64,000 nucleotides of DNA from Rhodocollybia butyracea (lineage: Eukaryota; Basidiomycota; Agaricomycetes; Agaricales; Omphalotaceae). Numbering within the stretch: the stretch's first letter is position 1; the number at the start of each line of letters is the position of its first letter. Location of the stretch: assembly GCA_015501585.1 (NCBI GenBank), contig JADNRY010000130.1, positions 109,336 through 173,335 of the forward strand, given 5' to 3'. Shown here one piece after another: positions 18,029 through 50,511 of this stretch. The notes under the pieces were generated by a model. The model saw nothing but the letters and a program-made list of their open reading frames with translations. It searched no databases and was not told the DNA's origin. A program made the translations under genes and the position numbers.

Positions 18029-18486
18029 CATACTGTACTATATAGTATCAGCCTGCGCCATACCGACGAACAATTTATATGGCCACAGGAGCGATGGTAT
18101 CTACTGATATTTATGTTATTTTTGAACAAATGCGATTTTCAGTTAGTAAAACATGAATAGGTGACGCTATGCAGCTCTAATAATGCTAAAACTTTGGGAA
18201 TCAAGTCTTCGAATTCTATTAAGTGAGCTCAAGTCCCTACAACAACCCCTCGGTATGTTAATAGCATGCTCATGTTTCAAGTGTTCACATAGATGTTATG
18301 ACCCGGATCTAAATGCTATACACCCAATCTTTTTTCTTCTGTAACCAACTATGAACACTATCATTAATACTTCTACTTAACATTTTACATTCATTAGTTA
18401 TTCAACACCATTTGGGTTAATGCTGCACACATTCTTCCAGAACACCAGAATGATCTTTAACAGTCACTGCACAGTCTGCACAGTCA

Positions 18487-18757
18487 TGACATCATTCTAG
18501 CTCCACAACTATGATGTCATCTTGCTACTCCACAATCATGATGTCATTCCATTGCTCCGCAGTTATGATATCACATCACTGCTCCACAGCTATGACATCA
18601 TTGCATAGCCTCTTTACACCAATGACTCAATATCAGTCATTGCACAGCCAGATATCTGAGTCAACTACGGTTCCGCATACATGACTCAATATTAGTCATT
18701 GCACAGCATTACATAGTCAGACTGACTCATCCGCAGTATTTCCGCAGTTATGACTCA
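18487..18757. promoter_or_regulatory. Array of ten bZIP-like sites in U3
   Basis: TGACATCA (18487), TGATGTCA (18512, 18539), TGATATCA (18566) and TGACATCA (18593) are spaced 25-27 bp apart. TGACTCA or TGAGTCA follows at 18623, 18657, 18682, 18723 and 18751. The first type is the ATF/CREB palindrome TGACGTCA with its central CG changed; the second is the Gcn4/AP-1 site. They lie just upstream of the TATA box. Confidence 0.65.
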
Positions 18758-18803
18758 AATCTAGTCATTCCGCAGCATTTCCTAACTAGTACACATTGCA
18801 CAG

Positions 18804-18848
18804 TATATAAGTAGTCTAGATTTACCAATGTACGTTAGACGTATTATT
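18804..18848 (+). promoter_or_regulatory. LTR promoter: TATA box and predicted start with self-primer
   Basis: TATATAA is at 18804-18810 and AGACGTATTATT starts 33 bp after its first base. The 12-mer reappears reverse-complemented as AATAATACGTCT at 19350-19361, one base after the LTR. In Tf1/sushi elements the first bases of the mRNA pair with such a site to prime reverse transcription. Confidence 0.65.
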
Positions 18849-19378
18849 TTCTTAAATCCAAACCCCCACTTGTTTGCTGTTATCACTTGTGTGAATCACC
18901 AGACCAACTCATTGTATCTTGTTGAGCTATCTCCAAGTATTAGACATTACACTCACTATTACTTGTTGAGCTATCTCCGAGTATTAGACATCACACTCAC
19001 TACTACTTGTTGAGCTATCTCCGAGTATTAGACACCACACTCACTACTACTTGTCGAGCCAACTCCAAGTATTAGTTCTGATTCATATTACTGCTTGTCG
19101 AGCCATCTCCAAGGGTAATCTTATTATTATTTGTCGAGCTATCTCCAAATAATAACTTCTGTGAGTTTTGTATTACAAACTAGTTACTAACTGTACTTGA
19201 GCCTAGTTGTTTGAGTATATATTTTTTGCCTAGCGGTTTCAACAAACGGAAAGGCTTGCTCTATAATCTCATTAATCTCTCTTATCATTTTTACTGCCGA
19301 GTTACGTACTGTGAAGGTTTGGACGAGACTATTGATCGAGTCATAACATAATAATACGTCTCTACCCGCCCCCATTAA

Positions 19379-21805
19379 ATGTCTACACAAACAACTCAAA
19401 CGCGCACCCAAACTGGGTCTCATCACCATCCTGAAACATTTGTTCAAGGATCTAGTAATCAAACTATTCCAACCGGTTTTAATGCTCCAGGATATACACT
19501 GGGACATGACATTTCCAATGTTGGAAATACCAGCAATTGGACACCCACTGATATTTCAGAAGGTGAAGTTGTAGTAATGCGGAGAGTTCATATTGGATCA
19601 AATGGATCAAATTTCAGTGAAACTGTGGTTCAGGAAGTTAGAGTGCCTACTACTGCAGAAATTGCCCAGATCTTTGCTCGTCATGATGACCATTCCACCA
19701 GTCATTCAGTTGAACGTGGTTCGTGAGGACAACAGCAGCAAATTCCTGATTTTGCAACAATTATACCTCTACCTTCTTCATATCATAGTCATTCTGCACA
19801 ATCTGATGCACACAGATCTCAAAGCGGACAACCTCCAAGGCAAAGCAGGGATATAATTCAGCTCTCAGAACCAGAACAAAATCCTTCACCTAGCCACCAT
19901 TCATCACCTGTACCATCAATTAACAGGAATGTATCTCCTCAAGCAATTGCTCACAGATCAGATACACCAATAATTGAATTCTTTGACTCTTTACATGCAC
20001 AATATAGAGCTCAACAGTCAACTGCAAGACCAGGTACATCACCTGTCAGAGGATCACCAAAGTTGTCTGTAGTTCCTGAGGAAAGCCAAGAGCATTTTAT
20101 TGCTCCTAGTAACCCACCTCATGGGTCTACACCTTGGCAATCTCACAATTCTCAGTCAGACCATAATGCTTTAAGTGCCATTAGGAGTTCAAACCAGTCA
20201 CAAGGACATGAACAATTGCCTGTTCAACCACAAGTTTTGCACCCAGTTTTAACTGTCAGGAACATCCCATCACCAGGTGGATCTTCCAAAAGCTCAGTAA
20301 AAAGCTCAGCAAAACAAGGTTCCCATAAGTCAAGCAATAGTGTACCAATTTTGAACCAGCTTCAAAATGAACAAACACAGTTTGACAGACTTAGTCAACA
20401 ATGCCAAAAATTCTTAGAGTCACTAGGCTATAGAAGCAGTAGTGCTCAACCTTGGCAATGGGTTCAGCAGTTGGAAAGACTAGGTCAGAGAGAGCTTGCA
20501 TTACTAAGTCCAAGTCTGTATCAGCGGATATCAGATGAAAGGAATAGTCAAATGTTAACATACCTATATGATGAGACACAAAGGAATGAAGTTCAAGTTC
20601 TATTGAGGGCAAGAAGTAGCACTAGCATGGAATTAGCACCTTCTGTTCATATGAGCCAGATGGCCAAAGTACAGGAAAATCCACCAAGTGTTCACACACC
20701 AGTGCAAACACCACCAAAAGCAGAAGTTCTGCCAAGTGCACATGCCCCCATGCAGAGAAATCAATTTATTGAGAACACAAGAAATGTGGAGGAAACTCAT
20801 GTTCCACTTACAGAAAGGAACTCTAGGCAAAATGAAAGCCCTAACAAGACTGACAGAATTCTTGCCTGGACAAGAAGGGTTCAGCCACCAAGCCCTCAAA
20901 ATGTTGAGATACCAATTATTCAACCCACAACACATATGCCATTAGCAACTAATCCTGTTGAAAAAATTGAGCAAGTAGTGAGAAATGAAAATCAACATGA
21001 TCACTCTAGGACTCAATTCCAACGAGATGAACCACCTCATGCAAGTGGTAGTCATGTGCTATTGGATCAAGGGAAAAGAAATACCAGCCTTATGAGCAGA
21101 AAACAAAATTTTGTAATGTCTACAAAATCTGAACAAGCTCAAGCTACAAGTCAATGTTTATTTCTTGAAACCCAACCAATAGATCCAACGCCACTACCTG
21201 CAGAAAATAATCATGTTCCACAGACTCTCATTCATGAGCCTTTAGGTTTGGACTGGGCTGAGCAAGCACATGATTTTTTGCAAAGCAATAATGATTATTC
21301 TTTTGTCTCACACAAAGGCAGGACACAAAAAGTCTCAAAAGGAGCCTCACCATTGTTCCCACTAGCATATGATCCAGAAATCGATAACTTTGTACAAAAT
21401 GACTGTCATACTGCTCAAAATACAGTTTTGGATCAGGATAGCCCACCAAACAATCATACATCACAAGCTCAACAACAGAGGGCCACCACGCTGACTCCAA
21501 GAGCTTCTAGAATGAATCAAGACAATTCTAGAAATGATAATGTTAATAAGATGTCAGTAGTACTAACCACTTGGGTCACTCCAGAGGAGTATGACCAAAG
21601 ACAAGGAAAAGGGGCTTGTACTTACTGTGAAAAGATAGGCCACTCTGCCCAACACTGCCCACAACAGCATGAACATGTGTCAGGTCAAGCTGCATTTATT
21701 GAAACTTCCAGAAAATTACCCGACAACATTATAATTGAAGTTAAAGATGAAATTTGGGATATTGATGGCACACTCTTGGGAAGGAATGGAAAAGGGGATG
21801 GATAA
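19379..21805 (+). pseudogene. Gag of the gag-only element, copy 1 (retro-gag domain deleted)
   Basis: A single frame of 809 codons starts at MSTQTTQTRTQT and is broken only by a TGA at 19724 (copy 2 has an Arg there, so CGA to TGA is likely). The N-terminal 600 residues are low-complexity, rich in Gln, Ser, Pro and His, with a helical stretch FDRLSQQCQKFLESLGYRS. The retrotransposon gag domain of copy 2 is absent; LGLDWAEQAHDFL passes after a short spacer into NNHTSQAQQQ and the zinc knuckle CTYCEKIGHSAQHC (CX2CX4HX4C). The deletion keeps the frame. Such a protein could bind RNA but should not form a normal capsid. Confidence 0.8.
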
Positions 21806-22021
21806 AAGGACATCGACCAGATAAACATCCTAGCATCTCAATAACCAGATGCTCATAGTCACAATGATTACACCCCAATAACTCTGCTTGCAACTCAAGT
21901 GGAAACACCACCAGAAATTATTTCCATGATTTTAACCCACCTCAATACATCTATCTGCAGAGAAAAATCAATTAACAGGTTTTTGCAGATGTCTAATACT
22001 CGGAGATAGCTCAACAAGTAA
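21806..22021. other. Spacer after gag copy 1
   Basis: Non-coding remnant of the gag-only element. It ends with an inverted monomer of the LTR hairpin repeat (about 21986-22021), which faces the LTR fragment that follows. Confidence 0.5.
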
Positions 22022-22429
22022 TAGACATCACACTCACTATTACTTGTTGAGCTATCTCCGAGTACTAGACACCACACTCACTATTACTTGTTGAGCTATC
22101 TCCGAGTACTAGACACCACACTCACTACTACTTGTTGAGCCATCTCCGAGTACTAGTTCTGATTCATATTACTGCTTGTTGAGCTATCTCCGAGGGTAAT
22201 CATATTATTATTTGTCGAGCTATCTCCAAATAATAACTTCTGTGAGTTTTGTATTACAAACTAGCTACTAACTTTACTTGAGCCTAGTTGTTTGAGTATA
22301 TATTTTTTGCCTAGCGGTTTCAACGAACGGAAAGGCTTGCTCTATAATCTCATTAATTTCTCTTATCATTTTTACTGCCGAGTTACGTACTGTGAAGGTT
22401 TGGACGAGACTATTGATCGAGTTATAACA
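22022..22429 (+). repeat. LTR fragment (hairpin array and U5)
   Basis: Matches the 3' part of the full LTR, with five hairpin units, and ends GAGTTATAACA. AATAATACGTCT follows at 22431-22442, after which the sequence switches strand into U3. Confidence 0.85.
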
Positions 22430-22430
22430 T

Positions 22431-22974
22431 AATAATACGTCTAACGTACATTGGTAAATCTAGACTACTTATATACTGTGCAATGTGTACTAGTTAGGAA
22501 ATGCTGCGGAATGACTAGATTTGAGTCATAACTGCGGAAATACTGCGGATGAGTCAGTCTGACTATGTAATGCTGTGCAATGACTAATATTGAGTCATGT
22601 ATGCGGAACCGTAGTTGACTCAGAGCAATGACTGATATTGAGTCATTGATGTAAAGAGGCTATGCAATGATGTCATAGCTGTGGAGCAGTGATGTGATAT
22701 CATAACTGCGGAGCAATGGAATGACATCATGATTGTGGAGTAGCAAGATGACATCATAGTTGTGGAGCTAGAATGATGTCATGACTGTGCAGACTGTGCA
22801 GTGACTGTTAAAGATCATTCTGGTGTTCTGGAAGAATGTGTGCAGCATTAACCCAAATGGTGTTGAATAACTAATGAATGTAAAATGTTAAGTAGAAGTA
22901 TTAATGATAGTGTTCATAGTTGGTTACAGAAGAAAAAAGATTGGGTGTATAGGATTTAGATCCGGGTCATAACA
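22431..22974 (-). repeat. LTR U3 fragment, inverted
   Basis: This is the reverse complement of LTR positions 18294-18848, from the element end to the predicted transcript start, including the bZIP-site array. It is followed by the polypurine tract of the inverted unit. Confidence 0.85.
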
Positions 22975-22991
22975 GTACTCCCCCCTTAAGG
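22975..22991 (-). promoter_or_regulatory. Polypurine tract of the gag-only element
   Basis: On the minus strand CCTTAAGGGGGGAGTAC lies against the U3 start TGTTATGACCC. This is the expected plus-strand primer and confirms that the unit runs on the minus strand here. Confidence 0.75.
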
Positions 22992-24487
22992 CCGAAACCC
23001 TCTGAGGCCACATATGAGTTAGGGAGTTCAATGTTCATTCATCAAATCAGCAGAGCAAAGGAGTTGACTGGAATCAATTTTTGCCTTTCATCTGTGTCTT
23101 GAGTTTCATTCACATTTTGACTTTAGTTGGTGGTTGTGGAGTGGCCCATTGATTGGTCATTAGTGTCATTGGTGTCGTTAGTGGCCTTGCCTGATACGTG
23201 AATTTTTTTTTGCTCAAGTGCCAGGTAGCGTCAAAACTATCACTAGCAAGTGACATTTTACATCAACATCATGATTCTGATACATCAAAGATTTTGGCAG
23301 TGCATTATGTCCATGGATCTGATTTACGGGAATTCCATCAATCAAAATGATTGTTTGATTGGAGATATGTTTACATACCGATGATATGATGGTCACTCTG
23401 ATGTCAATTGCTGCAAGTTGATTGGCGGTTTAGTTGAAAATAGTTGACATTATTGGCAAAGCTAGGTCTCGAGGTTCTGAGTATAACATTTAGATAGATT
23501 CAGCATATTTCCAGTTAATCAGAGATTTGATTTCATGGGCCTGAAGCTCATGGTTTGTGATATTTGTGCCATTTCGGGCTCAACTGCCGGTGTTTCAGTA
23601 AGCATTAATCTTGACTTGGTAGTTGAATCTCATGTTGATACAAGATTTCCGGAATTGTAGATGTATTTTTTGGTGTAATAGCGGGTATGAATGATTTTCA
23701 TCTTCCGTTAGATTGAAACTCATTAACCTGAGGTGTATCTCAGGTGCGGAAATCTCTCTTCCTTAGTATTTATTCAACTCCTGTTTAGGCTGTTGGTATT
23801 CTCCTTCCTTTCCCCTTGTTATGCGATGCTTCTGCACATCTTTCAAAGCTGCTCTGCTTTCTGGTGTTCTTGCTACAATTTCTGGGCATAATATGTATCA
23901 TAAGTAATCGCATTTGGTTGGAGATCATAGGGTTAATGTGGCGGTAAGTTTTTTGCAACATTTCTGAGTAAGTTCCACAGTTGGTCTGGTTGAATGGTCA
24001 AGAGTTAACGAGCTTGGCATCATTTGTTGCTCCATCCTGCCAGTTTCTTAAGGGCATTCTAGCATGGTTCTAGATTGGTTCTAGACTGCAAAATTTTATT
24101 TCATTTCATTTCTTGGCTTGTGCTCAACTGAAAGTTGAAATTTGAGTGTTGTGGAACATCAAAGCTGATCAGTTCTCTGATGTTTGGGCGTTATATTTGG
24201 GGATCATATGGGTCATGAATAATGGCATCGTAAAATCATTAGGGTGTCGTGGTAGCAGCATTGGTGCTGAGTATGCTCTGGCTTAATCAAGGGTCTTCAG
24301 TAGTGGTTTCTCTTCTGCATATGGGTATCTTGATGAAGGTAGAGCTGAATTGGATTTTATAGGATTTTATAGGTGAATAACTTGGTGCTGATGATAATTG
24401 GTTGAAGAGAAATTAGAGAATTAATGGCTGGTCCTTAGGTTTCCCCTATTCTTCCTCAGCCATGGAAGGTTCTCTTGGTTGTGATTC
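22992..24487 (-). other. Non-coding internal region of the gag-only element
   Basis: About 1.5 kb between gag and the polypurine tract, where protease, RT and integrase would normally be. I see no conserved pol motif on either strand. It is T/G-rich with short frames only. Confidence 0.6.
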
Positions 24488-27400
24488 TTATATTTCCCCT
24501 CCTTCAGGGTCTCCTTCCATGAGTGTGCTGTCAATATCAATGACTTCACCCTCAACTTCAAGTGTAATATTGCTTGGTGTGTCACTGGAAGTGTCCATAA
24601 ATGTGGCTCGATCCGATACATTATTGCGCCGTTGTGGGCAGTTTCTGGTGAAATGGCCCATCTCACCACAGTAAGTGCAAGCCCCTTTTGCTCGTCTTTG
24701 GTCATACTCCTCTTGAGTGACCCAAGCCATTTGTACTACAGCTGAAGCCTCATTGATATAATTGTTTCTAGAACTGTTGTGATTCATTCTAGATGGTCTT
24801 TGAGTCTGTGTGTTAGATGTAGTAGCGTCCTGTGGTTGAACTTGTGTTGTATGATTATTAGGCGGAATATTCTGATTGAAATTTGTGTTTGCAAAGGTGG
24901 AGTAGCTGTTTCCTGACTGGTTGTGGTCAAGGGTTTGATTATTTGTGTTTTCATTTTGGGTATTGTTATTCCCAGTTCTGAAATTATTCCCAAGTCCGGA
25001 ATCATAAAATGCTTCTCGTGCGCCATCAATGTCCAATAGCCTATCAACAACATCCTGATATGTTTCTGGCAAATTGCCAACCATTGTTAGACGGTTGCGC
25101 AGATCTGGCCGGATCTGATTCAGAAGTCTCCATCGCTTAGCAGGATCATTGTAAGTGGTGCGGTTAGCAATGTCTTCAAACTTGACTAAAAAGTCTGCAA
25201 ATGACTCTCTTGAGACTTGTATACATTTATCTAGTTGTGATTGAGCATGCATTTTCTCATCATGGAGACCAAACATGCGTCCAAACAACTTAACAAACTC
25301 TGACCAGATATTCAATGCTGGAGTAAAAGATTCATTTTCTCCATTAGCCTGTTTTTCTACCAGATTATTGTAGTACTTTGCTGCAGCTCCTGTAAGGTAT
25401 GATGCGGCAAATGTAATTTTTGAATTATCTGTAGAGTAAGTCATTGGCTTTGCATTGAACATTATCAGCACTGAATTTAGAAATGCTCTCCATGCGGCTC
25501 TGTTAGATCCATCAAATGGTGTTGGTTTGTTGATGTCAAGTTTTGACTCTCTCGTCAGAGCTCTAGTGGCTTCTTCATTCCTTCTTTTCTGTTCCTCTCT
25601 TTCCGGATTGTGCTCATTGCCATTTCTACCGTCATGTCCATCTCTTCCATCTCTTCCATCTCTTCCGTCTTTACAGCAGCAACAATGAGATCTGCCACAA
25701 GGCTGTTTTGGAGGTTCACCATCATTTGCTGGTGGAGGAGGCTCATTGGAGGAGGCTCATTGGGTCTGCTGTTCCTGTAGGAATTGTTTCCGTTGTTCTC
25801 ACCATTGTTTCTGCTTTGGTCATTCCCTTCACTATGATTTCCAGGGTCATCTGGTGGTGGGGGTGATGGTGGCGCTCCTCCTGATGCTTGGACAGGTGCC
25901 TTGCCTTTGTTTGGGATGAATGGGTAACCATTCATTGGCAAAAATTCATTTGCTTCAACAGCCCAATTCAGACCTAAAGGTGACCTAGGTACAACAGTCT
26001 TATGAGTCTGTGGAACCTGACCATGATGTGTGAGCAAATGTGGTGGCTCTACTAGCTCTACAGGAGATTGGATGGTTATGGGAATGTGAGGGGAGTCAAA
26101 TGTATTTTTTGTAACTTGTGTCTCAGGAAATACCTGCCGACTTGTTGAGGCTTGAGCAGGTTCATATTTTGTAGGCATTGCAAAATCCTGCTTTCTGCTT
26201 CTAAGTCTTGTATTTCTTTTCCCTTGATCAAATAGTGAGTGACTACCACTTGCATGAGGTGGCTCATCTCGTTGAAGTAGAGTTCTGGAGTGATCATGTT
26301 GATTTTCATTTCTCACTACTTGCTCCATTTTTTCAACAGGGTTAGTCACTAATGGCATATGTGTTGTGGGTTGAATAATTGGTATATTAACATTTTGAGG
26401 ACTTGGTGGTTGAACCCTTCTTGTCCAGGCAAGTATTCTGTCAGTCTCATTAGAGCTTTCATTTTGCCTAGAGTTCCTCTCTGTAAGTGGAACATGAGTT
26501 TCTTCCATATTTCTTGTGTTCTCAACTGATTGATTTCTTTGTATGGAGGTTTGTGCACTTGGTGGAACTTCTGCTTTTGATGAGGTTTGCACTGGTGTGT
26601 GAACACTTGGTGCATTTTCCTGTACTTTGGCCATCTGGCTCATATGAACAGAAGGTGCTAATTCTGCACTAGTGCTACTTCTTGCCCTCAATAAAACTTG
26701 AACTCCATTCCTTTGTGTCTCGTTATACAGGTATGTTAACATTTGGCTATTCCTTTTGTCTGATATCCGCTGATACAGACTTGGACTTAACGATGCAAGT
26801 TCTCTCTGACCTAGTCTTGTCAACTGTTGGATCCATTGCCATGGCTGAGCATTACTGCTTCTATAGCCTAATGACTCCAAAAATATTTGGCATTGCTGGC
26901 TGAGTCTGTCAAATTGTATTTGTTCATTTTGAAACTGGTTCAGAACTGGTACAGTATTGTTTGACTTGTATGAGCCTTGTTTTACTGAACTTTGGAAAGA
27001 TCCACTTGGTGATGGATGATTCTGAGCAGATATAGTTGGCTGTAAACCTTGCAATTGAACAGGTGCTTGTTCATGCCCTTGTGAGTGATTTAAACTCCTA
27101 ACAACACTTCCAGCATTGTGATCTGACTGAGAATGGTGAGAGAGAGATTTATGATGTGGATTACTATGAGTCATGGAATGCTCTTGCCCTTCCTCAGGGA
27201 CTAAAGACAATGGAGATCTTCTAATAGGTTCAATTTGTCTTTGACTTGATAGTACAGAAGACATTTGGCCATTAGTTGTTATACTCCCAGTTGCCTATTT
27301 GGCTCTAGTAATTGCTGGTGCAGATGATGAGTGGTAGGTAAGTGAAGGACTTTGTTCTGGTTCTGAGAACTGAACAATGTTCCTGCTTTGCCGTGTAGAT

Positions 27401-27840
27401 TCTCCACTTTGAGATTTGTGTGTATCAAATTGTGCAGAATGGCTATGATGTAAAAAAGGTAGAGGTGCACTTGCTACAAAATTAGGCATTTGCTGCTGTT
27501 GTCCTCGCGAACCATTATCAACTAAATGACTGGTGAAACGGTCATCATGACAAGCAAATATCTGTGCAATTTGTGCAGTAGGTGGCATTCTAACTTCTTG
27601 AACCACAGTTTCCGTTAAATTTGAACCCTTTGATCCAATGTGAATTCTCTGCATTACTACAAATTCACCATTTGGAATAGTAGTGGGTGACCCCCGGTTG
27701 GTATTTCCAACATTAGTATTGTGTTGTCCCAGTGTATATTCTGGAGCATTAAAACCAATTGGAAAGGTGGGGATATTAGATCCTTGAACAAATTGGTGAG
27801 ACCCAATCTGGGTGTATGATCTAGTTGTTTGTGTAGACAT
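24488..27840 (-). pseudogene. Gag of the gag-only element, copy 2 (near complete)
   Basis: About 1,117 codons broken by one TAG (27295-27297) and one frameshift near 25640-25700. The N-terminal part is low-complexity and matches copy 1. From the NKPTPFDGSNRAAW motif (about 25530) it has a retrotransposon gag domain: FAASYLTGAAAKYYNNL, IWSEFVKLFGRMFG, FADFLVKFEDIANRT, LLNQIRPDLRNRL. The zinc knuckle CTYCGEMGHFTRNC follows (CX2CX4HX4C). Gag packages the element RNA into particles. The absence of pol means enzymes must come from another element, perhaps a chromovirus of the Tf1/sushi kind. Confidence 0.85.
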
Positions 27841-27856
27841 TCATGGGGGCGGGTAG

Positions 27857-28526
27857 AGACGTATTATTTTTCTTAAATCCAAACCCCCACTTGTTTGCTG
27901 TTATCACTTGTGTGAATCACCAGACCAACTCATTGTATCTTGTTGAGCTATCTCCAAGCTACAATACACATTTATACATCTTGTTGAGCTAACTCCAAGT
28001 TGTATCCACTAACATTCACCTGTTGAGCTATCTCCTAGTGAATACTTCTTTAATTGCCACTTGTTGAGCTATCTCCGAGTTGCAACTTCCTATTACTTGT
28101 TGAGCTATCTCCAAGTATTAGACATTACACTCACTATTACTTGTTGAGCTATCTCCGAGTATTAGACATCACACTCACTACTACTTGTTGAGCTATCTCC
28201 GAGTATTAGACACCACACTCACTACTACTTGTCGAGCCAACTCCAAGTATTAGTTCTGATTCATATTACTGCTTGTCGAGCCATCTCCAAGGGTAATCTT
28301 ATTATTATTTGTCGAGCTATCTCCAAATAATAACTTCTGTGAGTTTTGTATTACAAACTAGTTACTAACTGTACTTGAGCCTAGTTGTTTGAGTATATAT
28401 TTTTTGCCTAGCGGTTTCAACGAATGGAAAGGCTTGCTCTATAATCTCATTAATTTCTCTTATCATTTTTACTGCCGAGTTACGTACTGTGAAGGTTTGG
28501 ACGAGACTATTGATCGAGTCATAACA
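27857..28526 (+). repeat. R-U5 part of the LTR with ten hairpin units
   Basis: Begins exactly at AGACGTATTATT and ends GTCATAACA. It contains ten hairpin units (about 27932-28333), more than the six of the full LTR at 18294. Several units that are fused or missing elsewhere are complete here. Confidence 0.85.
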
Positions 28527-30172
28527 ATAGATATCTGTAGTTAGCTCAAAGTTCAGATCATAGTATTGAAATGTGTATACCCAGACTTTTGAGTCTAGAG
28601 GGCATCTAAATGATTCGAAGATATGATTCCCAAGTTTTGAGCATTATCTGAGCATGTTCCATTCATGTTTTATTGCCTGAAAATCGAATTTTTTCGAAAA
28701 TAACATAAATATCAGTGAATACCATCGCTCCTGGGGCCATATAAATCGTTCGTCGGTATGGCGCAGGTTGATACTATATAGTCCATTATGTATGAGCACG
28801 TTCAGCGCCCTAGGTACTCTAAAGGCTTCACTATTCCATGTTAATTCCTCAAAAATCGACTTTTTAGGCAAAATATCGAAAGATCAATCCATACTATCGC
28901 TTCTAGTACCATATTAATCACTCTTGGACATGGAACGAAGGTCTAGCATGTATTACAGTATACCTACATTGCCTTGAGGGCATACCTTCACTTAAGCACT
29001 CACTATTATCATTTTATCACCCAAAAAAGCGATTTTTGGTGGTTACTAACCATTGATCACTCTATCCTCCTCCTCCTGGACACAGAATGGTGAGTATAAC
29101 AACCTGCTGTAGTTAACATACTATAGTACCCAGGTATACACTTAAAGCCTTACCCCTTGAGAATTCATGCCATTACTGAGCCCAACTTCAACTCAACACC
29201 ACCTATATATTTCCCTATTTGGACATACAGCTTTGACCTACTCCGACCTATGAGCTGGTAATTACAGCTTATTCCTGCCATGCAATGCCCTAGTTTTACT
29301 TCAGGCACACATATTTTGTGCAGACACTATGCCTGTATCACTAGTATGTAAAATATCCTACTGTTACTTCGACTTTTGACAGCACAGCCACAGGCCAAAA
29401 CCTCGAAGCAGGGCCACTTTTAACCCACATACCTGCCCTAATTTCGCTTCAGGTACCTATTGTACATGTATAATCACTGGTATTAGAGGAAATACCTAGG
29501 CACAAGCACGCTTTTAGGCCGCTTTGCTGGCATTATAAATATGGTAATAAAACAGCTTTGACCGGAGCTATGGCTGTAATTTCGCTTCAGGGACTTATTA
29601 TACATCTAATGACACTATGTACACTCTGATTAGGGAGAATATCAACTGTAGAAGCAGGCTTTTTAGGCGGCTTTGCTGGAATTCCAAATTAGGCAGTGAT
29701 GTACAGCTTTCACCGAAGGTAATCTAAATCTTTTCATTCAATCCAACCCATTACAGCACCCCATGGGCCGAGGTACACTGCTCAAATATTAATACATTGT
29801 CCATAGCCTTTTTTGGGCTTGCTACCACTCCAGAAATGTCCAAAATGGGCCCATAAATCACTGATTTTTTCGAAGCTGTCCAAAACTGCAATCCACCGGT
29901 CACATGACCGGATCAATCTGCACCGGCACTGCCGCTTTAGCTATAGCTCAATATGGCGACTTTTTTATTTCCAAATTTATCTAAAACAGATGTGATGTGA
30001 CATGCAAACCCAGCTCTATGTTACACAGAGCAAAAAATTCCCTAATCTAGTAATTTTGCACAAGTCTGGCTGTGACATATGCCACATTGCAATGTGAGCT
30101 CACTTTGCTGTTATGCCTGGGACTGCCCTAAATTGTAATGCGAGCTCTGGCCACGGCCACCCTACATTGCAA
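28527..30172. repeat. Right arm of foldback element Fb1
   Basis: Pairs with 5713-6342, 6965-7149 and 18034-18293 in inverted orientation. It lacks the MITE and the copia insertion, so it records the original sequence at both sites. Positions 29205-29768 have no partner in the left arm but match Fb2. Confidence 0.85.
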
Positions 30173-34211: not shown

Positions 34212-37200
34212 CTATGGAGGAGATCCTTGGTAACATTTGACCCAACCAAAGCCATGTGCAAAATTCTGGAAGTTGAGAGTGGCTAGTTCAGCATTTGAAA
34301 TAACTAACTGCAAAGGGGGTACCAGAAGTGTTTGCCGATATTCAAGAGGAATCCAAAGTAGCAATGAGTTGGAGCCACAAAGCCAACCCTCAGTGGTAAG
34401 GAAGAAGGTTGAGAAGGGGAGTTGGTGGTATGGCAGATAGTGATCAGGGTGAGAGCAGAAAGTAAGGACAGATGGGGAAAGACTCAATGGAGGAGGTTGT
34501 TTTGCTACTGGACCTGGAACCATCAACTGGGTTGTGGGACCAGGAACAGGGGGTGGGGATTCAGAGCTAATCTGTCTATGTGATGTTGCTGACCTGAGAT
34601 AGTGAGTGTGTCCCTTCAAAGGCCTTCCCATTGGTTTCCCACTCTGTGCATCCCAGACCCTCACTGACTTGTCAGAAGAGCCAGACACAATCCTGCTGCC
34701 ATCTGGGGAGAATACAACTGATGTGACAGAGTCAGTGTGTCCCTCCAAAGGCTTTCCCACTGGTTTCCCACTCTCTGCATCCCAGATTCTCACTGACTGG
34801 TCATCAGAACCAGACACAATCCTTCTGCCATCTGGAGAGAATGCAACTGACCATACAGAGTAAGTGTGTCCCTCAAAAGGTTTCCCTACTGGTGTCCCAC
34901 TCTCTATATCCCAAACTCTCACTGACTTGTCAGGAGAGCAAGACACAATTCTTCTTCCATCTGGGGAGAATGCAACTGCCCCAACCCAGTCAGTGTGTCC
35001 CTTAAAGGGCTTTCCAACTAGTTTCCCACTCTCTGCATCCCATACTCTCACTGACTTATCATAAGAACCAGACACAATCCATCGGCCATTTGGGGAGAAT
35101 GCAACAGACGTGACAGAACCAGTGTGCCCCTCAAAACACCTTCCTACTGGTTTGCCACTGTCTGCATTCCAGACCCTCACTGACTTGTCATCAGAGCCAG
35201 ACACAACTCTTCTGCAATCTGGGGAGAATGCAACTGAGCAGACCCAGTGAGTGTGTCCAACTAATGGCTTTCCAACTGGTTTCCTGCTCTCTGCATCCCA
35301 GATTCTCACAGACTTGTCATAGGAGCCAGACACAATCCATCGGCCATCTGAGGAGAATGCAACAGACCGGACAGAGCCAGTGTGCCCCTCCAAAAGCTTT
35401 TCCATGGGTTTGCCACTCTCTGCATCCCAGACTCTCACTGAGTTGTCATCAGAGCCAGACACAATCCTTCTGCCATCTGGCGAGCATGCAACTGATGTGA
35501 CAGAGTCAGTGTGTCCCCCCAAAGGCTTTTCTGTTGGTTCCCCACCCTTGGCATCCCAGACCCTTACTGACTTGTCAGAAGAGCCAGACACAATTCTTTT
35601 TCCATCCAGGGAGAGTGCAACTGACCTGACAGAATCAGTGTGTCCCGTCAAGGGCATTCCCACTGGCTTCCCACTCCTGGCATCCCAGACTTGCACTGAA
35701 CAATCATTGGAGCCAGACACAATTCTTCTGCCATCTGGGGAGAATACAACTGATGTGACCGAGTTTGTGTGTCCCTCAAAGGGCTTTCCAACTGGGTTCC
35801 CACTCTCTGCATACCACACTCTCACTGTCTGGTCATCAGAGCCAGACACAATCCTTCTGCCATCTGGAGAGAATGCAACTGCCCTGACAGAGTCAGTATG
35901 CCTCTGCAAGGGTGGCTTCACTGGTTTCCCGCTCTCCGCATCCCAGAGTCTTACTGACTTGTCGTCAGAGCCAGACACAATCCTTCTGCCATCTGGGGAG
36001 AATGCAACTGACCGGACCCAGTCAGTGTGTCCCTCAAAGGGCTTTCCCACTGGTTTTCCATTCTCTGCACTCCAGACTCTCACTGACTTGTCAGGAGAAC
36101 AAGACACAATCCTTCTACCATCTGGGGAGAATGCAACTGACCAGACCCAGTGAGTGTGTCCCTTCAAGGGCTGTCCTATCGGTTTCCCACTCTCTGCATC
36201 CCAGACTCTCAATGACTTATCATAAGAGCCAGACACAATCCTTCTGCCATCTGGAGAGAATGCAACTGCTGTGACATAGTTAGTGTGTCCCTGCAAGGGT
36301 TTTCCCACTGGTTTCCCACTCTCTGCATCCCAGACTCTCACTGACTTGTCATCAGAGCTAGACACAATCCTTCTTCCATCTGGGGAGAATGCAACTGACC
36401 AGACTAGGCCAGTGTGCCCAAACAGTGCAGTTTGCAAGTTTGACCACCTATCTTTGTGTCCGTTGCATAATGAAACCATTCCATGGCCATGTTGACCATA
36501 AACCTGTTGGAGAATTGACTCCTTTGGCATAAAGGGTATTGCTGACAGATAGAGATGTGGTGTAGAGTCTGTGATAGCCTGTCCAAACACTCTCACAAAC
36601 TGTTGTATCTCATTCAATAATGTTTGAAAACTACTCATTTGTTGATCCTATTATACAGTCATCAGCTCTGGTTACCTAGAGAGAGTCATTAGACTCAACC
36701 TTTAGCAACCAATGTTGTATATTTCCTGCAGGTATAGAAACGCGCTCCATTAGGGTCCGTAACGTTCTTTGCTTTGACTTCATATTCATCAGTCAAAAAT
36801 CCCCTTCAATGCTATATGTTTACATACCTTATTGCCCAACCACATCCACTTCCTTGTATTTTCAATAGCTCGAGACACCACGTGAAGCCTTTGATATACA
36901 CTCAATACCTCGATCCAGAATAAAGAGCACTTGTACCAGAACTCCTTCACTAAGCTCATCACACTATTGTTTGCCTTAATCTCACATAGATGCTCATCCC
37001 AAAAACAGCTTGCATATTCAAGTTCCCGTGGAATCGCCTTTGCTATCCTAGCTTTCATATCTTTCACTTCTGAGTTCAACACATGGGAACTCTTTAAATC
37101 ACACATATTGAAGTGCAAATCCTTAGCCATGAGTTGGAGAGAACCCCGAACCAAGGTGGTGTGCCCTTGAGAAATATTTACTGCAAATTTTCCACTCCGA

Positions 37201-38407: not shown

Positions 38408-38759
38408 TGACAACTGCACTTTCAGGTGTATTGATCATTATTTCATGACATTTGAATGAACAGACAGAAAACATACAAAGAGCAAATGTGGATGTTATGA
38501 GAAGTTTGAATAGCTAATGATGTCAAGATTGTTCACCTGGGGTCTAATATTGGAGAAGTAAGACTTATGGAAACAAGAGGGATATATCATGGAGAATATT
38601 TAAAGGCATATCAAAATAATAAGAAAGAGCATGTATAGAAAATGGGAAATGAATGTGAAAAGTTTGAGAAGATAAATAGAAATAGGATGGTTATAAGATT
38701 GAAGTGAAACAAGAATATTATGTTGAAGTAAAATATAGTCAAGACTACAAAGAGGGTAC

Positions 38760-41640
38760 AGATAGTCTATTGATAGGCTACACAAAGGGCACAGAGAGGC
38801 AATGCTGAGGCTACAAATAGGCTACAGCCTATAGGCAACACTAAGGCTATGAGTAGGGTATGGATAGGCTACATGAAGGGTACAGATAGGCTACAAATAG
38901 AGTACAAGTAGGCAACATCAGGGGTACAGATCATAGGCCATGGAAGGGATACAGATAGGCTACTCTGAGGCTACAGATAGGTTACATCAAGGGCACAGGT
39001 AGGCTACATATAGGCTACAGATAGATTACAAGTAGGCAACACCAGGGCTACACATAAGCTATGGATGGGTGACAGATAGGCTACTCAAAGGCAACAAATA
39101 TGCAATAGATAGGTGACACCAAGGCTATAAATAGACTATAGATAGGCTACAGATAGGTTACAAGTAGGCATCACCAAGGCTACAAATAGGCTATAGATGG
39201 GCTACAGATATATTACAAGTAGGCAAGACCAGGGGTACATTGAAGTGTGCCATGGATGGGCTACAGGAAAGCTACTCCAAGGCCACAAATAAGCAATAAA
39301 TAGGTTACACCGAGGCTACAAATAGACTATAGATAGGCTACAGATAGATTACAAGGAGGCAACACCAAAGGTACAAATAGTCTATGGAAGGTCTACAGAT
39401 AGGCTACTCTAAGGCTACAAATAGGCTGCAGATAGACTACAGATAGATTACAAGGAGGCAACACCAAAGCTACAAATAGGCTATAGACAGGCTCTGGCAG
39501 ATAGATTCCAAGTAGGCAACACCAGGGCTACACATAATCTATGGATAGGTTTCAGATAGGCTACTCCAAGGCTTTAAATATGCAACAGACAGGTGACACC
39601 AAGGCTACAAATAGACTATAGATAGGCAAGGCTATGAGTAGGGTATAAATAGGCTACATGAAGGGTACAGATAGGCTACTCTGAGGCTACAAATATGTTA
39701 CAGATAGACTACAGATTGATTACCCCCAGGCAATACCAAGGCAATGATTAGACTATAGATAGGCTGCAGATAGATTACAAGTGGGCAACACCAGGGGTAC
39801 AAATAGGCTATGGATGGTCTACAGATAGGCTACTTGGAGGTAACAAATAGGCAACAGATAAGTTACACCAAGGCTATGGATGGTCTACAGATAGCCAATT
39901 GTAGGTGTGACCACTATGAAACTTTGTAGTGCGCCGCAGGTGCTAGAAAATTCTTTTGTACATGTAGCACTGGCAACTCAATTTTTTTTTTGTAAGGTCC
40001 CTCAAATATCTGTGAACAGGTGTGACCTTTCAGACAATCTGGGTCCCTTGTGACCCATGACTTATGAACTGCCTGAAATGGTACAGTAGATTACCAGTAG
40101 GCAATGCAGATAGATTACAACCAGGCACAAATAGATTACATATAGGCAACACCAGGGGTACAAATAGGCTGTGGATGGGCTACAGATAGGCTACAACAAG
40201 GCTACAGATGGACTATAGATAGACTGCAGATAGATTACAAGTAAGCAGCACCAGGGGTGCAGATAGGGTATGGAGGGGCTACAGAGAGGCTACTGATAAA
40301 GGGTTCAAAGACTACAAATAGATTACAAGCAGGAAACACAAGGAGGATGGTCTACAAATAGGCAACAGATAGGTTACACCAAGGCTACAGATAGGCTACT
40401 AGTAGGGATGGACACGAGTCCAGATCCCGGTAAACCTGGACCTGCTGCACAGGTACCTGCACCCAAAAAAACACAACCTGTGACCTGACCCGGACCCATG
40501 GGAAACGGGTATCTGGATCTGCCGGATCCGGGCCATGCAGGTCGACCTGCAGGTATTTGTAGGTATTTGTACTTAAAATATACTTTATAGGTCTGAAAAT
40601 CCCCAAGGGCTGACCTGTGACCTGACCCGCACCTGTGGGAACAGGTACCTGGATCAGCCGGATCCAGGTCAGGCGGGTATTTCCACAGGTTAAACCAAGT
40701 GGGTCACCTGTAAAGAGCTGGACTTGTGTCCATCTTTATAGGCTACAGATAGATTAAAAGTAGGCAACACCCGGGGCACAGATAGGCTATGGATGGGCTA
40801 CAGATATGCTACTCGGAGGCTACAAATAGGCTACAGATAGATTCCATCAAGGGTACAGCTAGGCTACAGATAGACTACAGATAGATTACAAGCTGCTGCA
40901 ACAAGCAGGCAACACAAAGGCTACAGATAGGTTACAAGTAGGCAACTCCAAGGCTACAAATAGATAGATTACAAGCAGGCAACACCAAGGCTATAAATAT
41001 GCTATAGATAGGCTACAAGTAGGCAACACCAAAGGTACATATAGGCTATGCATGGTCTACAGATATGCTACTCCAAGGTGACAAATAGGCAACAAATAGG
41101 TTGCACCAAGGCTAAACATATACTACAGATAGGCTACAGATAGATTACAAGTAGGCAACACCAGGGGCACAGATAGGCTATGGATGGGCTACAGATAGGC
41201 TACAGATAGGTTACATCAAGGGTACAGATAGGCTACAGATAGACTACAGATAGATTACAAGCAGGCAACACAAAAGCTACAGATAGGTTACAAGTAGGCA
41301 ACATCAGGGCTACAAATAGGCTACATGGGAATGGGTACCTGGATCCTGTGTTCCCATGTGTTGAATCCACGGGTCACCTGTTAGGACCTGGACTCATGTC
41401 CATCCTTAGCTATAGATAGGCTACAGATAGGCTACTGTGAGGTTACAAATAGACAACAGATTGGTCACATCAAGGGTACAGACAGGCTACAGATAGATTA
41501 CAAGCAGGCAACACTAAGGCTACAAATAGGCTATAGATAGGCTACAGATAGATTACAAGTAGGCAACACCAGGGCCCAGGGGTACAGACAGGCTACTCCG
41601 AGGCCACAAATAGGCAACAGATAGGTTACAAATAGACTAT
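38760..41640 (+). repeat. Minisatellite A, left arm
   Basis: Degenerate tandem repeats built from GGCTACAGATAGATTACAAG and GTAGGCAACACCAAGGCTAC modules, with sub-periods near 10-12 bp and longer mixed units. The mirror copy is at about 56045-59000, and inner pieces lie at 47337-47910, 48600-49166 and 49400-50029. No gene is present in it. It is interrupted at 39895-40090 by non-repeat sequence and at 40403 by a MITE. Confidence 0.9.
40403..40738. mobile_element. 336-bp MITE in minisatellite A, left arm
   Basis: The ends are TAGGGATGGACACGAGTCC and GGACTTGTGTCCATCTTTA. Subterminal regions carry GGATCTGCCGGATCC-like motifs. TAGGCTAC is found close to both ends and could be an 8-bp hAT-type duplication, but the satellite background contains that word often. 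The mirror copy is 57022-57357. Confidence 0.75.
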
Positions 41641-41649
41641 AGAGCACTC

Positions 41650-41832
41650 ATGGCTGCACATACATCCATGAACCCATTGTTCCGACCTAGTGACAGACAA
41701 CCCTTCACCTGCCACAACTGCGGCAAGCCAGGGGATATGGCAAGGAAGTGGCCAAGGGCAGTGGTATGGAAGGGAAAGGGCAAAAACAGGGCTAACAGAA
41801 CCAGGACTTGCACAGCCTCCTCACATCAATGA
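41650..41832 (+). pseudogene. Gag fragment with degenerate zinc knuckle (left arm)
   Basis: A 60-residue frame has FTCHNCGKPGDMARKW where a CX2CX4HX4C knuckle would read C-C-H-C. The His and last Cys are replaced, so zinc binding is lost. It lies directly before an LTR fragment, and the same lesion occurs in the right-arm copy (55862-56044). It is most likely a remnant of an LTR element gag. Confidence 0.5.
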
Positions 41833-42387
41833 CTCAATATCAGTCATTGCACAGCATTCTGCAGTCAGGCTGACTGATCCACAGCATTTCTGCAGTTATG
41901 ACTCAAAACTATAGTACATATTAAACAGTATATAAGAAGGCTTGATTTACCAATGTAAGGTAGATGTATTATTTTTTTGAATCCAACCCCCACTTGTTTG
42001 CTGTTATCACTTGTGTGAATCACCAGACCAACTCATTGTATCTTGTTGAGCTATCTCCAAGTTGTATCTACTAATATTTACCTGTTGAGCTATCTCCTAG
42101 TGAATACCTCTTTAATTGCCACTTGTTGAGCTATCTCTGAGTATTAGACACCACACTCACTACTACTTGTTGAGCTATCTCCGAGTACTAGACACCACAC
42201 ACACTACTACTTGTTGAGCCATCTCCGAGTATTAGTTCTGATCCATATTACTACTTATTAAGCTATTTCTCAATGTAACCATATTATTATTTGTTGAGCT
42301 ATCTCCAAATAATAACTTCTGTGATTACAAACTAGTTACTGACTGTCCTTGAGCCTAGTTGTTTGAGTATATATTCTTTGCCTAGCG
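41808..42387 (+). repeat. LTR fragment of the gag-only family, left arm
   Basis: Matches the LTR at 18294-19348 from its TGACTCA sites through the TATA region and AGATGTATTATT (the self-primer with one C-to-T) to the hairpin array. It stops at GCCTAGCG, where copia-2 is inserted. The remainder of the LTR is preserved only in the right arm at 50030-50150. Confidence 0.85.
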
Positions 42388-42773
42388 TGTCAAAAGGGGA
42401 GCTACACGCCAAGGAGCTCCCCCCCCCTGCCTTTGCTTCTGGGTCAGATGGGACATGTTTAGGTGTAAGAAGGTTTATCCCTCAGGGGGATCTGATGTTT
42501 TTCCTTTGCTTATTTTGTTTATCCCTCCTCTTCATTTATCCAAGTGCCTAGTATTGACTTGGCAGTTTTGTGTAGTTAGTTATATAGAGGACAAGTCGTC
42601 CTTTGTCCCTCAGTCGTTTGTATACTTCTGAGGGTACGTTGATTTATTTATATGTTTATGGAACTTATACTTACACTTATATATGTAGCTTGTACTTACT
42701 AAGTTCCACAGGTAATTACTTGCAATACAAGTTGTTTGTATACTTCTGAGGCTCGTACTTACTAAGTTCCACA

Positions 42774-42785
42774 GGTTATGGGCCC
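42774..42785 (+). promoter_or_regulatory. Copia-2 primer binding site
   Basis: GGTTATGGGCCC directly follows the LTR, identical to the copia-1 site. It is complementary to the anticodon arm of initiator tRNA-Met. Confidence 0.75.
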
Positions 42786-42855
42786 CGCCTACCACTGGAA
42801 CTAATATACATTCTTGCCTAAAGAATATCAACTTGAACTTGAAATACTTTGACCA

Positions 42856-43704
42856 TTGAACTCAAATAACTTGAACCCAGACATGGCTAGTAATGGTGCA
42901 ATACCGCCTCCCTTCCCAGATATCCCCGAAGACCAGAGATTCAATGGGGGAGTCAGACTAGCTTGGGCTCCAATCAAAAGAAAGATGAAGATTGCGCTCA
43001 AAGCTCAAGGTCTAATCGGGTACATAGATGGTACTATTTCCATCCCCCTTGTTATCCTGCTACCAGCAAATGTTCCTGTCACACCCGTACCTCCTACCCC
43101 AGTATACTCCACAAATCCATCCCAGGATGAGTGGATGTTCCATAATGACCGGGCTAGGGGAATGATTGAAGCGTATGTGTTGGATCTACCTTTGCTCATC
43201 CCTGATGTCGACAAGATGAATGCCATTGATTCCTTCTTCAAAACTTTCCAAGAGCTGCAAAGGGAAGCCATTGAAGGTGGAAATGATGTTACTGACAAAA
43301 TCTTCAAGAGTGTTGTTCTTGCTGCGTTCCCAACACCGTCAATGGATACTATCATCCAGAACATCACGGCAAATCCCATGACTTATCCTACCTCTGCATC
43401 GGTGATACAGCAGATTACCTACCAGTTTTCACATACAGAAACCTGTCCCAATGCTGCAGTATCAGGAAATCGCCTCCAGCAGGCAAATGCTGCTCTCCAG
43501 ACCAGGATAGAGCATCTCGAGCGCCAACTTGCTGCTGTCGCTGTGGGTGGATTGGGAACGAGGGGAAATGGGAATGGAAAGAAGTGTACAAATCCTAATT
43601 GCCTGAGGGAGGGGCATCTGGCAGAAGATTGCTTTAGGCAGGGTGGAGGTAAAGAAGGATGTGCCATCTTTGACCCAAGCTGCAAATACCGCAGTCTCCA
43701 CTAA
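42856..43704 (+). CDS. Copia-2 gag (left arm, frame intact)
   Basis: A frame of 282 residues starts MNSNNLNPDMASN, 83 bases after the LTR. Residues about 25-200 form the gag core (RFNGGVRLAWAPIKRKMKIA, DRARGMIEAYVLDL, QRLQQANAALQTRIEHLERQ coiled coil near 210-230). A zinc knuckle CTNPNCLREGHLAEDC follows (CX4CX4HX4C, an unusual first spacing). Gag would coat the element RNA. Its end overlaps the next frame by 62 bases in a different register, consistent with programmed frameshifting or a broken junction. The right-arm copy is broken by single-base losses. Confidence 0.8.
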   Translation: MNSNNLNPDMASNGAIPPPFPDIPEDQRFNGGVRLAWAPIKRKMKIALKAQGLIGYIDGTISIPLVILLPANVPVTPVPPTPVYSTNPSQDEWMFHNDRARGMIEAYVLDLPLLIPDVDKMNAIDSFFKTFQELQREAIEGGNDVTDKIFKSVVLAAFPTPSMDTIIQNITANPMTYPTSASVIQQITYQFSHTETCPNAAVSGNRLQQANAALQTRIEHLERQLAAVAVGGLGTRGNGNGKKCTNPNCLREGHLAEDCFRQGGGKEGCAIFDPSCKYRSLH

Positions 43705-45352
43705 CTCTTCCATTTCGGTAGGCAAATTAACCCAGCATTACGCCGGTTACAGCGCGTCCATGTTGATATTGGAACTGGAGAATGAGACATTCACTGACTC
43801 AGGAGCTTCAGACCATTTCTTCAGGAAAAGATTGGACTTCCTTACCTATACACCATGCTCACGCTTGAGCAGATCTTCTGAGGAGTCAACTACTCTGAAG
43901 ATTATCGGATATGGGAAGGCCAGAAAATTCTTCACACATGAAGGAAAGGTTATCACTATAACTTTCGAGGAAGCACTTCATTCACCTTCCATAACCTCAG
44001 ACCTCATATCAATCTCCAAACTGTGTGATAAGGGTATGACTGTCATGTTCAAGAAACAAACTGCAAAGTTTCATTCTGCAGGAACGCATATCTTGACTGG
44101 CTTCAGACATGGTGGCCTATACCGTTTGCAGGAGAAGGAGACATCGGCATTGGTGGTTAAGTCGAGAGCCCTGGATAAGCCAGTGGATATCGAGGGATGG
44201 CACCGCCAATTTGGTCACACTGGAGTTACGAGAATCCAAATTGCATTAGAGAAGAACTTGCTAAATGGCCTGAATGTACTTGGAGATCCAAATACTAAAC
44301 CACCTGAATGCAACCCATGCCACATTGGTCAGGCTAAGCGCAGACCGTTTGACAGTAAAACCGAGGTCAAATCGAGGATCCTGGAGAGAGTCCAGATTGA
44401 CCTCACTGGCCCAATGCATACTAGGGCATTAGGAGGGCTCTTCTACTCGATGCCTATAGTCGATGGCTGTTCCGCTATGACCAGGGATTACTACCTGATG
44501 AATAAAGAATCCTCATCTACCTTGGCCGCCTTGGAAAAATATAAGGCATTGGCAGAGAACAAGACTGGGCAGAAGATGCTGTATGTTTGTGTCAATGGAG
44601 GGAAAGAGTTTGGAAGTGAAGCGTGGATGAAGTGGGCTGAGGAGGATGGAATAAAGCTTGAAGTAACCCCGGCATATTTGTCAGCAGCAAATGGCATTGT
44701 AGAAAGAAAGCATGGCGTCACTTTTGACCATGTACATACTATTCTTTACAGAACCGGACTTCCCCCTTTCCTCTGGACTTACGCCTGTGCCTACGTTGTC
44801 TATACCGAAAATCTACTCCCGGCTGCGAGGACTGGCTACAAGATTCCAGCTGAACTCTGGTATAGGAAGAAAATGGATGTTGCTCACCTGCGGCCTTGGG
44901 GTGCTATTGCCTGGGGCACTATTGTCAATGGCAGTCCCGGTAAGCTCAATCCACGAGGATTCTCTGGCCAAATGGTTGGGTATGGAGAGCGAGGTGTGTA
45001 CTTGCTTTATTTGCCGACAGGCCAAATTGTCGCTAGCAGGGATGTTTCCTTCGACGAGAGAGTACAAGTTTCTTTGCCCTCAGTTGTGGGGGAGAGGGGA
45101 GATGAGAGTGACGGAGATGTTGAAGCGGAAAGTCAACATCTTGACGACACAACTGATGCCGGAAAAAACTCTAATATCCCTGAGCCCATGATCTCCAATG
45201 ACTTAAAGGTACCCAAATCACAGCCACTGCAAGTTCACCACTCCTCCCACAATAGAACACCGTCTGCAATTGCAAAAGCTAGCTACAAGTCCGAGAATAG
45301 GGAGAAGGAGAGCAGCAGAGCCCAGCTCGAGTGGGCAACAAACACAAGATGA
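43643..45352 (+). pseudogene. Copia-2 protease and integrase (left arm)
   Basis: The frame of 569 residues has the retropepsin site FTDSGASDHFF (residues about 52-62), then the zinc region HRQFGH ... CNPCHIGQAK and the integrase core. The first catalytic Asp is in VQIDLTGP and the Glu in NGIVERKHG. The second should be Asp before GGKEF but reads CVNGGKEF, so Asp is replaced by Asn. CGTGTCGAT to TGTGTCAAT, two CpG transitions, would explain Cys and Asn together. The integrase is therefore predicted inactive although the frame is open. It ends at 45352, before a damaged RT. Confidence 0.85.
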
Positions 45353-45367
45353 CCTCACACAAACTTC

Positions 45368-46054
45368 ATGACCCTTGCTGCTAACCTACCTTCCAAAGTT
45401 GATGAGATGTTTAATACAGCTCTCTTGGCAGTTGGACTTCCTCCAGTTCCAAAATCATACTCGAAAGCCATGGAAGACCCAACTCGTTGGATGCCAGCCA
45501 TCCAGAAGAAGGGAGAGATTTCTTTGAGGTCTTTGCCACTGTCTTACACTTCGATTCACTTCACATACTCATTGCTGTGTGGATCACCCTGGGTTATTTT
45601 ATCTGGCAGATTGACTTTGCCTCAGCCTATCTCAATGCCGACATGGAGGAAGAGATGTATATCAGACCTCCTGAAGGGTTTGAAGGTAGGGGTACCGGAC
45701 AGGTGATGAGAATGAAGAAGTTGTTATACGGATCCATGCAGGCCGGAAGGAACTGGTGGAAACTCCTCAATGCAACGTACAAAGACCTTGGATACCAGCA
45801 ATCTCAAGCTGACCAATGCGTTTGGACTAGGAGGACAGATATAGGCGAGACAATGACGGGTAGATATACAGATGATACTCTTGGTGGATCGTCGATGAAA
45901 GAGGAGATGGATAGGGCAAAGAGCGAGATCAGGAGTTGCTATCAAATCAAAGAGACCAATACGGTACACTTTGCTCTTGCTATGTGCTTGACTCATGACA
46001 GGGAATCTGGGATGGCAACTCTCTCGATGCCAGCCTATTGGGATCAGCTGTTTA
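45368..46054 (+). pseudogene. Copia-2 reverse transcriptase, internally deleted (left arm)
   Basis: Two overlapping frames cover this stretch. The first (45368 on) starts the RT region with SYSKAMEDPTRWMPA. The second (45487-46052) resumes at FEVFATVLHFDSLHILIAV, WQIDFASAYLNADMEEEMYI (first catalytic Asp) and the box GRYTDDTLGGSS (YTDD). About 60 residues that normally carry W.Y..K and KARLVAQG are missing between them, so the fingers domain is incomplete. A MITE at 46055 cuts the following thumb region. Confidence 0.85.
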
Positions 46055-47202: not shown

Positions 47203-47336
47203 TGTCAAAAGGGGAGCTACACGCCAAGGAGTTCCCCTCCCCCCCCTGCCTTTGCTTCCGGGTCAGATGGGACATGTTTAGGTGTAAGGAGGTTTATCCC
47301 TCAGGGGGATCCGATGTTTTTCCTTTGCTTATTTTG

Positions 47337-50150: not shown

Positions 50151-50511
50151 TGTGGAACATGAGCCTCAGAAGTATACAAATGGCTCGTATTGCAAGTAAT
50201 TACCTGTGGAACTTAGTAAGTACAAGCTACATATAAATAAATCAACATACCCTCAGAAGTATACAAATGACTGAGGGACAAAGGACAACTTGTCCTCTAT
50301 ATAACTAACTACATGAGACTGCCAAGTCAATACTAGGCACTTGGATAAATGAAGAGGAGGGATAAACAAAATAAGCAAAGGAAAAACATCGGATCCCCCT
50401 GAGGGATAAACCTCCTTACACCTAAACATGTCCCATCTGACCCGGAAGCAAAGGCAGGGGGGGGGAGGGGAACTCCTTGGCGTGTAGCTCCCCTTTTGAC
50501 ACTCCCCTAGT

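Follow-up and report, generated by a model that had tools for sequence, protein, structure and literature searches.

In the fission yeast retrotransposon Tf1, the primer binding site (PBS) is complementary to the 11 bases with which its own RNA begins, according to the passages of the two papers cited here (PMC7175516, PMC4600332), and self-priming is likewise proposed for Tcn1 in the corresponding passages of PMC7175516 and PMC2864245. A structure of another kind is described for fungal GalEa Copia elements in the part of PMC5445492 cited here, namely the Conserved Hairpin Site, situated close to the 5' LTR. We analyzed a window of 64,000 nucleotides of Rhodocollybia butyracea (the whole stretch from 109,336 to 173,335 of contig JADNRY010000130.1), in which a first-pass annotation had described an array of ten hairpins. 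Our leading reading, held tentatively and with a little less than even confidence, is that the array is part of the R-U5 leader of an element that would self-prime in the manner of Tf1, and that it may serve as a repeated docking site for a protein, with Gag and packaging as the first candidate.

The segment carrying the array (27857-28526, + strand) had been taken for a whole LTR, which is not upheld. The LTR extends from TGTTATGACCCGG to GAGTCATAACA, and the segment, whose end in GAGTCATAACA is the LTR 3' end, is therefore R-U5 alone. R starts with AGACGTATTATT (27857-27868, + strand), which is both the predicted transcription start and the predicted self-primer, and folding places the 5' and 3' arms of a predicted long-range R-U5 stem at CCAAACC (27879-27885, + strand) and GGTTTGG (28494-28500, + strand). 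In 43 of 44 copies measured elsewhere, a TATATAA precedes AGACGTATTATT by 33 nt, and the depletion of ATG begins at the start of R. The claim that the array lies downstream of a promoter is supported in other copies but fails for the copy in the window, where the array (27932-28333) ends a rearranged element, adjoins the 5' end of an antisense gag and has no promoter of its own. The 42 full leaders that could be drawn from 75 loci (the others have no recognizable R start, U5 end or three hairpins) are roughly 510-760 nt long and bear 5 to 12 exact-core hairpin units each. They contain a mean of 0.36 ATG in the sense strand versus 10.8 in the antisense strand, with none in 30 of the 42; the window's own leader has 1 sense ATG versus 10.4 expected, and the U3 just upstream has a mean of 14.7 (40 copies). 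The region thus looks like a transcribed and scanned mRNA leader. When 35 copies were compared with the copy L021, ten were found to have a different U3 (mean identity 70.3%), with R at 98.6% and U5 at 95.0%, the last mean taking in one poor alignment (L030, 69%). The drop in identity between U3 and R-U5 falls at the predicted transcription start. R-U5 is common to subfamilies with different U3. The position of the border would fit a swapping of strong-stop DNA among the subfamilies, a leader kept by selection, or a combination of the two.

The LTR is immediately followed by TAATAATACGTCT, in which AATAATACGTCT is perfectly complementary to the first 12 nt of R. Because of this complementarity, which was absent from the first-pass annotation, the element looks self-priming, of the Tf1 type. 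The arrangement is seen in the window in a canonical R-U5 leader (18837-19361, + strand; five exact-core hairpins and a sixth, first unit), with U3 upstream and gag downstream (from 19361 on) on the same strand, and its PBS, AATAATACGTCT (19350-19361, + strand), is complementary to 18837-18848. The minimum free energy fold of 18837-19400 pairs nucleotides 1-12 with the PBS and also forms the R-U5 stem; the arms of this predicted stem hardly vary between copies, and hence it shows no covariation. Within 3 mismatches, 55 junctions with a PBS were found, five of which differ inside the 12 nt. We read 13 leaders at both ends, consisting of five chosen for their differing PBS (L098-L102) and eight others. 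R and PBS match at 12 of 12 positions in seven leaders, L098 and L101 carry compensated double changes at different positions, L099 and L100 pair through G-U, and L021 and L102 have one mismatch each. Since a self-primed element would copy its primer into the new PBS, such matching may be its natural outcome.

To place the family, one linked pol was read. In C481 (L110), the array leader, PBS and gag stand on one strand and are followed by PR, RT, RNase H, integrase, SH3_Tf2-1 and a chromodomain, a predicted domain order that assigns the family, from this one pol, to the Ty3/gypsy chromoviruses; the nearest solved structure to it by sequence is that of Ty3. PBS, gag and RT also stand in line, by their coordinates only, in C1012, C591 and C1185. 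The LTR spacing of about 4.65 kb at C136, C180 and C472 is too short for pol, and from these coordinates the short-spaced copies look like gag-only relatives. The window's own copies have gag, with no pol among the open reading frames of 22976-24487, and the closest relatives with a name among the 14 matches to the nearby gag (11 proteins) come from Tetrapyrgos, Dendrothele and Marasmius, which by itself makes an agaricomycete host very likely. C523 (L103), examined for pol, yielded only a DDE transposase; the remains of this DDE_3 transposase lie within an array-LTR element (C523:91800-95800). C1149 (L108/L109), whose gag is distantly related, has a Ty3/gypsy pol but no array in the 3.7-kb stretch upstream. 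The sequence AATAATACATCTC, which resembles an LTR end plus PBS, also occurs inside elements well downstream of the PBS, at 13 genomic places (for example C472:43065-43085, 2.9 kb downstream of the PBS). In pattern searches of the 95.6-Mb assembly, from which all our genome-wide counts come, the markers flanking the array occur 305 (left) and 322 (right) times, corresponding to about 300 copies, and the hairpin core with at most one mismatch has 3089 matches versus 4 for the reversed control. Nothing informative was obtained from viral contigs, where 19 stretches each have a single 16-mer match.

The array at 27932-28333 belongs to a composite element (18294-28526) that is flanked by ATAGA (18289-18293 and 28527-28531), contains internal inverted matches and bears two gag regions in opposite directions. 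The gag reading frames antisense to the array (24488-27840, - strand) lie at 27295-27840, 25555-27264 and 24488-25471; Retrotrans_gag and a CCHC knuckle are found in the frame at 24488-25471. A second, truncated copy of R-U5 (22003-22442, + strand) meets an inverted U3 (22443-22974) at AATAATACGTCT; at its left end one hairpin unit forms a snapback, as an inverted and then a direct copy (21993-22036). The inverted joints at 27857 and 22442 both fall on the 12-nt R/PBS complement. The joint at 27857 is the sole exact instance in the genome, 46 of the 47 pattern matches being an ordinary PBS read backwards with 3 mismatches, and this junction is a private rearrangement. The end of the strong-stop DNA is letter-identical to the PBS, and its annealing to the complementary strand of a different PBS could produce an inverted join; the composite may be an aberrant product of self-priming. 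An invertible cassette between AGACGTATTATT ends had been suggested by the orientation of the array in the window, on the strand of one gag (from 19361) and opposite to the other (from 27840 downward). It was rejected on the copies fetched, which show the canonical order U3-R-hairpins in 39 of 40 (L044 is rearranged; L019 is without a U5 end) and gag downstream on the same strand as the array in all 8 of the 40 with a located gag start.

Elsewhere in the window, a Copia element from 42387 on has its own LTR starting inside an array leader, and the joint between the two is present at 12 genomic places, so it has been multiplied. The Copia element was rejected as the owner of the array, and the array and the Copia LTR also occur apart. 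The stretches 38408-47336 and 50367-59339 form a nine-kilobase inverted repeat of 98.2% identity, which contains 11-base satellite repeats, an array leader and a Copia element. A reading frame at 34212-36638 (- strand) encodes 14 WD40 repeats with a 129-base period.

All ten hairpins of the array were found at the positions claimed in the first-pass annotation, with a common core U-Y-GAG-CYAW-CUC and stems that differ yet remain self-complementary. By folding, hairpins 1 to 4 lie at 27932-27965, 27974-28005, 28014-28043 and 28054-28085; hairpins 5 to 8, assigned by folding and repeat register, lie at 28090-28121 (the first in a 44-nt register), 28134-28165, 28178-28209 and 28222-28253; and hairpins 9 (with a shifted register in its stem pairing) and 10 are folded at 28265-28297 and 28302-28333, all on the + strand. 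In every unit the upper stem consists of three constant pairs and the 5' side carries a bulge of two bases, whereas the lower stem, about 5-10 pairs long, varies between units. Most lower stems have an internal mismatch, often a single one. The core GAGCYAWCTC has 34 matches in the window versus 0.53 expected, and none of 100 shuffles reached 34. We further collected 599 units, 113 of them distinct, from 77 stretches, excluding three loci (L068 and L078 within the window and, needlessly, L033 outside it). Of the 113 distinct units, 112, 112 and 107 keep Watson-Crick pairing at the three positions of GAG/CTC, bearing out a near-fixed tip on changing stems. The fixed core that had been claimed is confirmed for bulge, upper stem and loop (U-Y-GAG-CYAW-CUC); the CTTG/CAAG step below it varies between units, with a mispaired CCTG/CTAG in unit 3, TTTG/CAAA in unit 10 and CGAG in units 4, 6 and 7. 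Units 5-8 are near-duplicates in a 44-nt tandem register, and the independent lineages are therefore about seven rather than ten. Two unit clusters (7 and 8, with 24 and 12 copies) consist of chimeric hairpins whose left and right arms stem from different units, likely through deletions between units; cluster 7 partly retains pairing via G-U.

Selection on RNA structure, as the first-pass annotation had argued, is favored by several comparisons of the arms. Among the ten window units, hairpins formed by a unit's own arms have a mean energy of -8.9 kcal/mol versus -5.3 for arms taken from different units, and none of 20000 permutations of the arms matched the native stability. Because units 5-8 are near copies, the arm swap was rerun with one representative of each of the seven lineages, and the native assignment was the single most stable of 5040, also when the variable outer parts alone were used. 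Counting pairs in 21 window units (19 distinct), with 500 shuffles and slid registers as controls, we found that 88.7% of pairing cells pair, versus 80.0 ± 1.1 in the shuffled and 34.8-51.0% in the slid controls, and that the covariation score is 0.288, versus 0.146 ± 0.018 for shuffles (0/500 reached it) and at most 0.128 for slid registers. Two of the five measures are weaker: 23 of 500 shuffles equaled the native value for pairs changed on both sides, and 41 of 500 did so for further pair types. The covariation proposed for the lower stems is thus supported by the arm swap, the pair counts and the score, but the APC-corrected column test is only partly clean: its two top cross-arm column pairs are the true pairs 4:4 and 5:5, and six of its ten strongest are not true pairs, as expected for few and related lineages. 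R-U5 is nearly uniform between copies, which are thus not independent witnesses, and the covariation rests on the roughly seven unit lineages. The whole region folds only moderately better than its shuffles (z = -2.5 for the sense and -1.8 for the antisense strand).

To ask which strand is selected, the 599 units (113 distinct) were placed in 23 clusters and their imperfect pairs divided into common and rare within a cluster. The common ones, read on the + strand, are 10 G-T and 1 A-C, versus 6 and 6 among the rare ones. Such mismatches are tolerated as G-U only in RNA of the + strand, and the excess of G-U over A-C therefore points to the sense RNA as the structure under selection. The strands are nearly equal in mean hairpin energy (-7.44 sense and -7.29 antisense over the 113 distinct units), and the region as a whole also folds when taken as antisense. 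A role as DNA, either as transcription factor sites or as a minisatellite maintained by slippage, would accommodate the plain 44-nt tandem repeat of units 5-8, the spread of 5 to 12 exact-core units across the 42 leaders and the presence of chimeric units. We consider it improbable, because the matched changes of the arms and the bias of G-U over A-C favor RNA, the array is located downstream of the TATA box, and slippage by itself would not hold the core fixed while the stems change together.

A constant tip on a drifting stem would be the usual signature of a hairpin recognized by a protein. Retroviral TAR and the coat-protein hairpins of phages are protein-bound and built in this way, the bulge, upper stem and loop being fixed while the stem beneath them need only pair. 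On our leading reading of a repeated docking site, the first 12 nt of the RNA would pair with the PBS just after the 5' LTR and presumably prime there; the array, usually of 9-10 hairpins, would stand between primer and PBS; and with bulge, upper stem and loop near constant and the lower stem required only to pair, several copies of one protein could dock along the leader. To our knowledge, the way LTR retrotransposons outside retroviruses select RNA for packaging is poorly known. As pol-bearing and gag-only subfamilies share the leader, Gag would be the first candidate binder, through its CCHC knuckle, and the array may be a packaging signal repeated in both kinds of copy; naming Gag is a guess. 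More speculatively, and with correspondingly lower confidence, the array may be a multivalent and evolvable packaging code of tandem Gag-binding hairpins, with the tip under selection and the units reshuffled by template switching, so that pol-bearing and gag-only relatives with different promoters would share a leader and hence a particle. A host RNA-binding protein using the array for export, stability or translation of the leader would leave a signature identical to that of Gag, and a leader free of ATG is suggestive of ribosome scanning; Rfam, at its thresholds, yielded no counterpart of the hairpin in the host, and we regard this explanation as unlikely, though worth keeping in view.

Rather than bind a protein, the local hairpins might prevent misfolding of the leader so that its 5' end meets the PBS. 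Primer and PBS stand precisely on either side of the array, folding predicts an R-U5 stem (CCAAACC/GGTTTGG) that would close the leader, and the mean pairing probability of this stem, 0.85-0.99 in 11 leaders, is mostly lower when the array is shuffled (0.67-0.96; higher in L048). However, the stem forms equally well without the array (0.93-1.00), and the pairing probability of primer and PBS (0.83-0.96) is unaffected in each of the 13 leaders by shuffling or removing the array, so that in the folding model the array is not needed to close the leader, a test that is weak as regards compaction, for which the energy model gives no reward. Such a scaffold would also not require a constant loop and bulge, and it seems unlikely to us. 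An IRES or ribosome shunting might be suspected from a long structured leader preceding gag, but upstream ATGs are nearly absent, and on the sense strand only, as expected of plain scanning; this disfavors internal or shunted entry, which we hold to be very improbable. Dimerization, a role raised in the first-pass annotation, is unlikely to occur by loop-loop kissing, as CYAW on direct reading is not self-complementary, and on reasoning alone stems of about ten pairs are unlikely Dicer substrates.

Rfam returned no family at curated thresholds (one irrelevant weak match, E = 0.86), and the open-access literature searched, with subscription papers outside its scope, describes no hairpin array in an LTR leader, in agreement with the earlier statement that no family with this pattern is described. 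Self-priming chromoviruses are already known; a leader array with a constant tip and matched stems, as predicted here, was not found described in these sources. Because one leader can hold as many as twelve natural variants of a single hairpin, alike in the tip and different in the stems, it offers a mutational series from which a binding rule could be worked out. At the sequence level, the family also provides evidence for self-priming in a mushroom lineage, including compensated changes of primer and PBS.

Compared with Tf1/Tf2 and Tj1, the self-priming Ty3/gypsy elements of fission yeasts as portrayed in the cited passages, the family shares a PBS complementary to the 5' end of its own RNA and, in the linked copy C481, a pol of the chromodomain type. 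It differs in that 12 nt are complementary here and 11 bases in Tf1, and in its leader of about 510-760 nt with 5-12 exact-core hairpins, an array that those passages do not mention for these elements. It resembles Tcn1-type chromoviruses as a chromodomain Ty3/gypsy element of fungi and differs from them in its hairpin array, none being mentioned for that type in the cited parts of PMC7175516 and PMC2864245. With GalEa Copia it shares a conserved hairpin structure by the 5' LTR of a fungal retrotransposon; in the portrayal cited above, GalEa has a single hairpin after the LTR and no PBS, whereas the present element is Ty3/gypsy, has a PBS and carries many hairpins within R-U5. Relative to TAR and the phage coat-protein hairpins, the sequence is different and the hairpins form a long tandem array, so that the resemblance is one of design only: a fixed bulge, upper stem and loop carried on a stem that need only pair.
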